Assembly (NCBI GenBank): GCA_963971425.1
Contig: OZ020525.1
Coordinates: 620,001-684,000 of the forward strand
Direction of reading: 5' to 3'
DNA from: Bryoerythrophyllum caledonicum
Taxonomy: Eukaryota > Streptophyta > Bryopsida > Pottiales > Pottiaceae
DNA length: 64,000 bases
Part shown: positions 37,205 through 44,874 of the stretch, piece by piece
Position numbering within the stretch: the stretch's first letter is position 1
Layout of the letters: each line of letters opens with the position of its first letter
The notes under the pieces: generated by a model
What the model saw: only the letters and a program-made list of their open reading frames with translations
Databases searched by the model: none
Told to the model about the DNA's origin: nothing
Made by a program: the position numbers and the translations under genes

Positions 37205-39076
37205 GTGTCAAACAACGCTACAACCCAAGACAACATAGTATATATATATAGTAAAATACATTACAAAAGCCAAAAAATATATAAAACAATAAATAAAACA
37301 AAAGAAAAAAATATAATAGTATATTTTTATACTTTAATATATAACAACAACAACAACAACAACAACAACAACAACAACAACAACAACAACAACAACAACA
37401 ACAACAACAACAACAACAACAACAACAACAACAACAACAACAACAACAACAACAACAACAACAACAACAACAACAACAACAACAACAACAACAACAACAA
37501 CAACAACAACAACAACAACAACAACAACAACAACAACAACAACAACAACAACAACAACAACAACAACAACAACAACAACAACAACAACAACAACAACAAC
37601 AACAACAACAACAACAACAACAACAACAACAACAATCACAACCACAACAACAATCACAACCACAACAACAACAACAACAATCACAACCATAACCACAAAC
37701 ACAACCACAACCACAAACACAACAACAATCAACAACAACAACTACAACACCCCTCACCCATCCCACTAGTAGCTATAAACAGTACTCATTTCAAACTATT
37801 AATTATACTCTGCGGAGACATAGAAACCAACCTCGGCCCAATGCCAAATGTCTTCCACAACCACCCAAAAATACACAAAAGGTTATCAAAAATATACTTC
37901 ATTCCGAACACTATAAAACTCCACCCCGAATATCAACATCTAGCATCTTCCTTTGCACCACTCCTAAAAAGTAATCACATACTTCACCAAAACTACTCCA
38001 CCCTCTACCCCAACATCTCCCGTTATATACATCAAAAAAACAACCACCCATCCACACATATCTTATTTGCCATAATTACCACCCTCCACCCATCAATAAA
38101 CGAATGCAACAATATCACTAATCAAAATTCTACCAACACAAACCCAACACATTGGACAAATATATTACTAAACACCTTATCCGCTCTACATAATCCCCCT
38201 GAAAGACACATAGATACACTCCACCCATACACTAAATTCCTAGAAGAAAATCAACACCTTTTTGAACACAAAACCTCTCTACACAATGACCTATACAACT
38301 TTATTCATAGCCAAACCATACCCCCTTCCACCAATGAAATACAACTAAAATTTCCCTACTTTCCGCACAATCTCATCCTTGAAGCTCTCAGATGCTTTGA
38401 ACCAATTCATGCCTACACGCACCCCACCCCGATACCCGCCTACATTCCCCCTTCACTTTATAACCACGACAATATAGACAATAGAAATACATATATAGTC
38501 ACATGGAACGCCTCAACGTTAAACACTGCTTTACCATGCATCCACCATCTAACCACCCACACCGACACACCACCCGCCATAATTGCTATACAGGAAACTA
38601 AAATAACCGCTACCAAATCCACAAAATACATTCAAAAAACATTCCCTGACTATAAACTTATATTCAACAACACTCATTCTCTCACACGTTGCATCCAACA
38701 ACGAAGGCCATATACACCAGCAAGGGGAGGTCTACTCATGCTCATACATCAATCATATGCCTTCCCCGGGAATATTACTAAAATCCCTACCCCGGCCAAT
38801 ATATCACCATATCTCCAGATTATTGAAATTACTAACCGACCCCTCCAACCATGGCTCATTCTCCACCTATACATGCCCTCGCACATAGAAGACTCCAGAT
38901 TTATTCCGGAAATCCAAAATTCCATTACCTCACAAATAAATACACATACTAACCACACAATAATACTTTGCGGAGACTTTAACCGAGACATCGCCCTTAT
39001 TGGAAGACAAAATGGAGGGATTATCACTCCTCCACTGGACATAGACTATCAATGGCAAATTATACGAATAACCTAG
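37205..39076 (+). CDS. LINE copy 1 ORF2, N-terminal part: 2A-like motif and APE endonuclease
   Basis: Open from directly behind the ORF1 stop (first codon GTG, no ATG before the repeat) through the CAA tract, read as polyasparagine. A 2A-like motif GDIETNLGP follows at 37814-37840; the first ATG is just after it. Next come about 220 uncharacterised residues, then an APE-type endonuclease that nicks target DNA for target-primed reverse transcription: TWNASTLN (near 38503), QET with E464, ARGGLLML, LHLYMPS, and CGDFNRD with D591 and N593. The frame ends after DYQWQ; the rest of the domain (SLIDGFY, NSDHFP) continues in the next frame from 39052. A single-nucleotide change therefore separates the two halves of the endonuclease. 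Confidence 0.85.
   Translation: MSNNATTQDNIVYIYSKIHYKSQKIYKTINKTKEKNIIVYFYTLIYNNNNNNNNNNNNNNNNNNNNNNNNNNNNNNNNNNNNNNNNNNNNNNNNNNNNNNNNNNNNNNNNNNNNNNNNNNNNNNNNNNNNNNNNNNNNNNNNNNHNHNNNHNHNNNNNNHNHNHKHNHNHKHNNNQQQQLQHPSPIPLVAINSTHFKLLIILCGDIETNLGPMPNVFHNHPKIHKRLSKIYFIPNTIKLHPEYQHLASSFAPLLKSNHILHQNYSTLYPNISRYIHQKNNHPSTHILFAIITTLHPSINECNNITNQNSTNTNPTHWTNILLNTLSALHNPPERHIDTLHPYTKFLEENQHLFEHKTSLHNDLYNFIHSQTIPPSTNEIQLKFPYFPHNLILEALRCFEPIHAYTHPTPIPAYIPPSLYNHDNIDNRNTYIVTWNASTLNTALPCIHHLTTHTDTPPAIIAIQETKITATKSTKYIQKTFPDYKLIFNNTHSLTRCIQQRRPYTPARGGLLMLIHQSYAFPGNITKIPTPANISPYLQIIEITNRPLQPWLILHLYMPSHIEDSRFIPEIQNSITSQINTHTNHTIILCGDFNRDIALIGRQNGGIITPPLDIDYQWQIIRIT
37343..37635. repeat. (CAA)n tract in LINE copy 1
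   Basis: About 97 uninterrupted AAC/CAA units (293 bp), followed to about 37740 by interrupted CAC/CAA variants. It lies between ORF1 and the 2A-like motif. Copy 2 has the same repeat at the same relative place (about 53427-53541). Confidence 0.98.
37793..37840 (+). other. 2A-like ribosome-skipping motif, copy 1
   Basis: Reads hydrophobic residues then CGDIETNLGP. The 2A consensus is D-x-E-x-N-P-G-P; here the first Pro codon is CTC (Leu) where CCC would give Pro. 2A-like motifs at the start of LINE ORF2 are known from trypanosomes and sea urchins. In this copy the change probably abolishes skipping. Confidence 0.75.

Positions 39077-44874: not shown

Follow-up and report, generated by a model that had tools for sequence, protein, structure and literature searches.

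An apparently active Dualen-like LINE of Bryoerythrophyllum caledonicum encodes two predicted endonucleases and a PCIF1-like domain

We analyzed a 64,000-nucleotide stretch of the Bryoerythrophyllum caledonicum genome (assembly GCA_963971425.1, contig OZ020525.1, positions 620,001 to 684,000, forward strand; hereafter the window, numbered from its first letter). Positions 32125-45111 of the forward strand hold a nearly intact, full-length long interspersed nuclear element (LINE) of about 12,987 bp, here called copy 1. The order of parts in its second open reading frame (ORF2) is a 2A-like peptide, an APE endonuclease, a reverse transcriptase (RT), a PCIF1-like domain, RNase H, a CCHC zinc knuckle and a predicted R2-type restriction-like endonuclease (RLE). 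We interpret the element, with a probability of roughly 0.7, as a recently active, non-site-specific, Dualen-like retrotransposon without long terminal repeats, equipped with two endonucleases and an RNA-binding PCIF1-like domain. Its domain order, uninterrupted copies, constraint on every domain, folded-looking 3' untranslated region (UTR) with (TTC)n and target-site duplications of about 9-14 bp were observed directly. The features of copy 1 are as follows.

32113-32124, no strand: left target-site duplication TGCACCACACTC, an exact 12-bp match to 45111-45122
32125-45111, forward: LINE copy 1, bounded by the duplication and a defined (TTC)n 3' end, with homologous 5' regions, full or truncated, in five other copies
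32388-37202, forward: ORF1 frame, made up of a leader of 1,076 codons free of stops (32388-35615) and then a part common to copy 2 (35616-37199)
37343-37749, forward: (AAC)n-rich stretch between ORF1 and ORF2, from Tandem Repeats Finder
37814-37840, forward: 2A-like peptide GDIETNLGP directly 5' of a Met (37841), from sequence
38489-39250, forward: APE endonuclease with approximate borders, lying partly in frame 2 (to 39076) and partly in frame 1 (from 38983), from Pfam PF03372 and motifs
40201-41145, forward: RT, from the PGPD motif to the end of the Pfam match, with YADD (RVT_1, 8.7e-30)
about 42619-42990, forward: PCIF1/CAPAM-like domain (PF12237) between RT and RNase H, 42.7 bits against a cut-off of 31.1
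43405-43830, forward: RNase H (PF00075, 4.3e-12)
44197-44253, forward: CCHC zinc knuckle C-x2-C-x9-H-x4-C, from sequence, invariant in 4 aligned copies
44287-44682, forward: predicted R2-type RLE with RHN, KPD, E and KTNKY, end approximate, from motif order and constraint, without a Pfam or PDB sequence match
44956-45111, forward: structured 3' UTR with a GC hairpin and a terminal (TTC)n tail, from a 19-sequence alignment (-58.2 kcal/mol)
45111-45122, no strand: right target-site duplication TGCACCACACTC, an exact 12-bp direct repeat of 32113-32124

In copy 1 ORF2 lies in two frames, with the GDFN motif of APE in frame 2 (to 39076) and SDH and everything downstream in frame 1 (38983-44874). 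Four other genomic copies (L031-L034) have ORF2 as one open frame, of which 2292-2557 residues were read within the stretches fetched. Because these four copies have no frame change at that place, we regard the frame changes of the window copies as private lesions; a programmed frameshift in APE, suggested by frame changes that lie no more than about 25 bases apart in copies 1 and 2, was rejected on the same comparison. The N-terminal part of the copy 1 APE matches PF03372 below the cut-off (E 7.5e-4), and the best PDB match of the RT is the R2 entry 9nl2 (1.9e-32). The RNase H sequence RAHADIDGNEQAD carries a His where the archaeal-like RNase H of plant L1 elements has Arg (PMC4640811).

An earlier note, made from the sequence alone, had placed one LINE polyprotein at 37205-44874. 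That extent covers most of ORF2, but the element is larger (32125-45111, with its 12-bp duplication), and the single polyprotein is found in the four other copies rather than in copy 1, where APE is split. The parts it had listed for ORF2 (APE, RT, RNase H and C-terminal RLE motifs) were recovered, while the PCIF1/CAPAM-like domain and the 2A-like peptide had been overlooked. TWNAS, QET, GDFN and SDH do precede the RT, and KPD, IEFT and KTNKY do follow RNase H, so that with RHN the key motifs of both endonucleases are present in copy 1 as it had said; the finger that it gave as C-x2-C-x8-H-x4-C is a CCHC finger with a spacing of x9. The profile search of ORF2 that it proposed returned RVT_1, PF00075 and, on an isolated piece of L032, PF14529, but no Pfam match for the RLE.

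The second endonuclease is predicted from its motif set and from constraint, which together point to an RLE of R2 type at the C terminus of ORF2. Downstream of RNase H, copy 1 reads CX2CX9HX4C, RHN, KPD, IEFT and KTNKY, in that sequence. The published signature of LINE RLEs comprises a CX2-3CX7-8HX4C knuckle, RH, a PD-(D/E)XK core in variant form, and KX2KY, whose first K is the catalytic Lys (PMC5678591); the knuckle of copy 1 is one residue beyond the CX7-8H range, and the GXW that the same source places after the fourth strand was not found in the copy 1 RLE. A regular expression for this succession of motifs, its widths chosen with the sequence already known, found no match in 200,000 shuffles or anywhere else in ORF2, while its parts alone matched more often (CCHC in 3,026 shuffles, PD-E-K in 36). 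In a sample of 48 loci, 46 gave an RLE match, with all 12 key residues in 35, LD for PD in 1 and an early end in 10, of which 4 carry altered key residues. These counts are not independent, since the sample consists mostly of close copies and includes repeated insertions (the four insertions L001, L009, L021 and L003 appear again as L031-L034, and L004 is the window copy).

The domain between RT and RNase H matches PF12237 with 42.7 bits when taken alone and with 37.8-38.8 bits within whole proteins. Although named for a WW domain, this family corresponds to the CAPAM-like methyltransferase (PMC7641849); Pfam gave no WW domain match in ORF2 at E values up to 1. Searched against the PDB, the copy 1 domain finds PCIF1 chains best (E 0.0054), the next match being an unrelated chain at 1.5, and a 9-sequence profile of the domain finds PCIF1 chains at 0.0011 and 0.073, ahead of two anillin chains (0.43 and 0.84). 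The FxSPxxC and FGSxG blocks are likewise shared with PCIF1/CAPAM. The domain differs from these enzymes in lying inside a retrotransposon protein and in having HPH-N/T/S for the family motif NPPF (PMC8868631): HPHN at 42892-42903 aligns opposite the catalytic NPPF of PCIF1. NPPF is kept in 0 of the 44 loci that cover the site, of 48 given, and these 44 loci represent 40 distinct insertions. The four columns beginning at the residue before the Asn, ANPP in PCIF1, read AHPH in 40 loci, VHPH in 2, APPH in 1 and ADPH in 1, so the Asn position is taken by His in 42 of the 44 loci, by Pro in one and by Asp in one; at the Phe position, the 12 loci read have Asn, Thr or Ser.

Copies carrying this domain are numerous in the genome assembly, which was searched over 437,360,962 bases in 894 contigs with all copy counts being lower bounds. 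All 150 scored matches to PF12237 (150 scored of 2,614 candidates) exceeded the cut-off, the best at 59.2 bits, and 0 of 14 control genomes matched, which is a weak control. Twelve of the 150 were inspected; every one has FET...FGSLGxxFD...PH blocks, and in 8 the RNase H motif YYTDGS follows within the fetched flank. The RLE query gave at least 123 matches that are 94-100% identical (123 scored of 9,453 candidates), the top four of which, the window copy among them, tie for the top score at 100% identity. Of the copies with an uninterrupted ORF2, L033 is 90-93% identical to copy 1, and the other three (L031, L032 and L034) reach 99.4-99.8%. A second family is represented by the fetched member L053, with an open frame and an intact 2A motif, and the same 3,087-residue open frame recurs in at least 33 loci (33 of the 150 scored PF12237 matches). 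Both families are apparently recent.

Constraint was measured between the two families by comparing ORF2 of L032 and L053 over 2,338 codons (70% identity) with bootstrap intervals. The proportion of synonymous differences (pS) is 0.71 and saturated, and the proportion of nonsynonymous differences (pN) is 0.107 in RT, 0.110 in RNase H, 0.116 in CCHC-RLE, 0.156 in the PCIF1-like domain and 0.182 in APE. Outside the domains, pN is 0.138 in the spacer between RNase H and RLE, 0.197, 0.220 and 0.291 in the other spacers and 0.258 at the N terminus; the PCIF1-like domain is held more firmly than most linkers. In every domain pN is far below the saturated pS, so selection has preserved the two endonucleases along with the PCIF1-like domain. 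Copies 1 and 2 of the window give a similar picture.

Copy 2 of the window lies on the same strand as copy 1.

51123-52622, forward: ORF1 part of copy 2, from tblastn (33% amino acid identity)
53988-60863, forward: decayed ORF2 of copy 2, resembling the second family (L053), from tblastn and Pfam RVT_1 and RNase H

The claim that both copies in the window keep the domain order is borne out in copy 2 only as to order, its ORF2 being decayed by stops, frame changes, a deletion after RT and KLD for KPD. Its likeness to copy 1 ends at 60863, before the 3' UTR, and its PCIF1_WW match of 24.9 bits is below the cut-off, the piece scored holding just part of the domain.

The last ~155 bases of the element fold at -58.2 kcal/mol, and base changes in the 19-sequence alignment mostly preserve pairs; covariation is slight, with both sides changed in 1 of 45 predicted pairs. 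Hairpin and (TTC)n form the 3' end in 28 of 30 loci, followed by 28 flanks that are all different, the two exceptions being a rearranged locus (L005) and one without a match (L029). In the window copy, L001, L002 and L009, among six copies examined, duplications of 12-13 bp stand at the junction or no more than about 20 bases from it. For the window copy alone a chance control was run, in which a repeat of at least 12 bp occurred at 5 of 2,819 control positions. Flank and tail overlap, so the true duplications may be 1-3 bases shorter, hence our range of about 9-14 bp. From the 28 differing flanks and the duplications at unrelated sites we conclude that insertion is not site-specific, unlike that of R2; the habit of the R2/RLE group of inserting at a specific repeated target is not seen.

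The canonical 2A/StopGo form is D(V/I)ExNPGP after a hydrophobic run. The 2A-like motif of ORF2 follows such a run and reads GDIETNPGP-Met in L032, L033 and L053, the three relatives in which that part was fetched, so the motif there is that of a predicted 2A/StopGo peptide. In sea urchin proteins, 2A-like sequences serve as signal sequences (PMC4981915). Upstream, the ORF1 leader (32388-35615) has 0 stops over 1,076 codons, as compared with 42 and 44 in the other two frames, and the longest stop-free run in 500 simulations was 275 codons. The following part, 35616-37199, is 33% identical in amino acids to its counterpart in copy 2 (51123-52622, tblastn) and matched no Pfam family. At locus L035, where the RLE is 95% identical, a 944-codon leader frame is kept up to a run of N; it shares 33% amino acid identity with the copy 1 leader over 235 residues, and just 35 DNA bases align. 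The 5' leader has kept one open frame despite very fast sequence evolution, and its protein has a low-complexity look. A fusion of ORF1 and ORF2 was rejected: the 4,622-residue frame on contig C10 (L035, C10:648000-656500) is a false one, since the element copy there contains a run of N that the frame crosses.

The combination of APE and RLE defines Dualen/RandI (PMC3636483, PMC4640811), and RNase H has been reported for Dualen (PMC4640811). The present element has this architecture in one ORF, with APE N-terminal to RT, RNase H, and an RLE at the C terminus that is predicted from motifs and constraint; like Dualen/RandI it ends in a simple repeat, (ATT)n and (CTTT)n tails being listed beside the Chlamydomonas RandI elements (PMC3747384). 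Compared with Dualen as described in these sources, it may differ in its PCIF1-like domain, 2A-like peptide, long ORF1 frame and length of 13 kb. With R2 and other RLE LINEs it shares PGPD, the CCHC knuckle (one residue longer here), RH, PD, E and KX2KY (PMC5678591), to which it adds APE, RNase H and the PCIF1-like domain, and its target sites are unrelated, with duplications of about 9-14 bp. The Dualen/RandI-like reading of the earlier note therefore holds for the APE - RT - RNase H - RLE layout, which is under selection and present in many copies; the RT tree, which includes no Dualen sequence, assigns the element to no clade. Its statement that the group is known from green algae agrees with the records from Chlamydomonas and relatives (PMC8226300) and proves too narrow, since LINE/Dualen also occurs in cryptophytes (PMC12747079).

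The RT itself gives mixed signals. Its profile matches the PDB entries of R2 (9nl2, 9nl3, 9dou) at 94-102 bits, human L1 at 67-69 bits and 8gh6/8ibw, which we take to be R2Bm, at 51-55 bits. A tree of 9 sequences, with two group II introns as outgroup, L056 as the other APE LINE and no Dualen sequence included, has the element branching outside all of R2, L1 and the other LINE; support for this is weak (40.6/54), and a grouping with R2 is nearly as likely (p-AU, the approximately unbiased test, 0.51 as compared with 0.74). The arrangement ((element, L1), LINE_L056) is rejected at p-AU 0.0045; three others, in which the element joins L1 or L1 together with the other LINE, have p-AU of 0.09-0.20 and are not rejected. 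The phylogeny that the earlier note had named as a check on its reading yields no firm placement, whether with L1 or with R2, in this 9-sequence, Dualen-free tree. L056, a stretch of an Alicyclobacillus fastidiosus plasmid record (NZ_CP104070.1), reads like a decayed eukaryotic LINE with stops rather than a group II intron, and the record may contain eukaryotic contamination. Viral and prokaryote sequence collections gave no relative of the element.

It is quite conceivable, though we lean away from it, that this is a Dualen/RandI element of the usual kind and that the group has always carried the PCIF1-like domain, and perhaps the 2A-like peptide, without either being named; only the host range and the annotation would then be new. 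The joint presence of APE and RLE (PMC3636483, PMC4640811), the RNase H reported for Dualen (PMC4640811) and a (TTC)n tail resembling those of Chlamydomonas RandI (PMC3747384) all suit this explanation. On the other side, the Dualen descriptions examined, themselves partial texts, mention neither a methyltransferase-like domain nor a 2A-like peptide, and no description joining Dualen, cap, methyltransferase and LINE was among them; this is a weak argument, the founding description lying outside the set. Nor did a limited literature, which contained neither that founding description nor Repbase, connect any retrotransposon protein with PCIF1 or any land plant with Dualen.

We consider it improbable that the C-terminal domain is a degenerate remnant without a working nuclease and that APE makes all cuts, as in L1. 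Neither profiles nor structures give the RLE a match, KLD replaces KPD in copy 2, and short duplications at scattered sites would equally suit APE elements; yet the constraint on CCHC-RLE (pN 0.116) is close to that on RT and RNase H (0.107 and 0.110), and all 12 key residues stand in 35 of 46 loci, most of them close copies. Plant L1 LINEs have ORF1 and an ORF2 with APE, RT and in some cases RNase H. That the element is simply one of these is very hard to sustain: the two-ORF layout with APE first and RNase H after RT is shared, but the RLE motif set, the PCIF1-like domain and an RNase H (RAHADIDGNEQAD) with His rather than the Arg of archaeal-like plant L1 RNase H, a domain present in some plant L1 elements (PMC4640811), all set it apart, and the closest nesting of its RT with L1 is rejected, other L1 arrangements being tolerated. 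An unlikely but somewhat less remote explanation takes the PCIF1-like domain for a working methyltransferase, unusual in its active site, that modifies the element's own cap. In its favor are the clear family match, the constraint and a Pro-His pair that occupies the final two scored positions at all 44 loci; against it stands the replacement of the motif NPPF (PMC8868631), Asn giving way to His in 42 of 44 loci and Phe to Asn, Thr or Ser in the 12 that were read.

Several observations weigh against our interpretation of a two-endonuclease, Dualen-like element with an RNA-binding domain. The RLE had no match in Pfam or PDB sequence searches, nor with profile A1 against the PDB, and its AlphaFold predictions, for two sequences, have a predicted local distance difference test score (pLDDT) of 36; the structure prediction for the PCIF1-like domain (A4) has a pLDDT of 32. 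The APE match exceeds the Pfam cut-off solely for an isolated piece, PF14529 scoring 29.1 bits on a 300-residue piece of the intact L032 APE and 25.6 bits inside the whole ORF2 (cut-off 27.4). Bootstrap intervals of pN overlap among the PCIF1-like domain (0.118-0.196), APE (0.153-0.212) and the APE-RT linker (0.171-0.243), and the spacer between RNase H and RLE (0.138) has a lower pN than the PCIF1-like domain (0.156). Among the six copies examined for duplications, L003 has a junction without one, and the 14-bp repeat of L006 stands about 80 bases off the homologous start. The 2A-like motif is mutated in both window copies (NLGP in copy 1, NPRP in copy 2), the RT tree supports no clade assignment, and we infer, rather than observe, both the assignment of endonucleases to first and second strands and the binding of a cap.

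With these reservations, the two-endonuclease reading suggests the following course of retrotransposition. The 2A-like peptide would release the ORF2 protein from an N-terminal leader during translation, and the protein would then bind the folded 3' UTR. In target-primed reverse transcription, one endonuclease, probably APE, would nick the first strand, and the (TTC)n end would serve the RT for priming; the second endonuclease, probably the RLE, which follows a CCHC linker as in R2, would cut the second strand about 12 bp off and so produce the duplication. RNase H would clear the template RNA. The PCIF1-like domain most likely binds RNA, perhaps the capped 5' end of its own transcript, and would help to choose full-length templates or to complete the 5' junction. 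We read it as a captured and repurposed cap- or 5'-end-binding domain: a binding role is proposed because the domain is conserved though the NPPF chemistry is lost, and the capped 5' end because it would be the natural ligand by descent. More tentatively, and with the balance of our judgment on the side of doubt, a LINE lineage may have captured a host-type cap-methyltransferase domain, lost its NPPF center and kept the domain under selection as a reader of capped 5' ends, so that the ORF2 protein would hold both ends of its RNA and have two endonucleases for two strands.

How LINEs cut the second strand and how they choose full-length RNA are old open questions. Here, two predicted endonucleases and a cap-enzyme-like domain lie in one conserved protein of an apparently active family, in which each step could be separated by its active site. 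If the proposal is true, cap-enzyme domains would join retrotransposon biology, and a retrotransposon would check that its template is full length. APE LINEs are stated to have arisen through replacement of RLE by APE (PMC4640811), and an element with both endonucleases bears on that statement.

Outside the LINE copies, the window holds several other features. At 1-16495, inverted 5.8-kb arms (912-6710 and 10689-16495) are 99.8% identical and form a large, recent, palindrome-like duplication; between them lies a 1.66-kb direct repeat (7033-8695 and 8896-10556, 99.6%). Ten ORFs in and near the palindrome (902-22400) gave no Pfam family over the cut-off, and Rfam gave no match in the window at the gathering threshold. 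Positions 24632-26828 hold a dense tandem repeat array, degenerate and built of overlapping units that range from about 11 to 409 bases, and an imperfect inverted repeat of about 220 bases at 61567-61787 may be a small DNA transposon. Beside LINE copy 2, SET-domain exons on the reverse strand (62695-63874; 1 of 3 exons over the cut-off) probably belong to a histone methyltransferase gene; its weak PDB relative is SUV39H2, and the gene, at about 62.7-63.9 kb, presumably resembles plant SUVR-type proteins.

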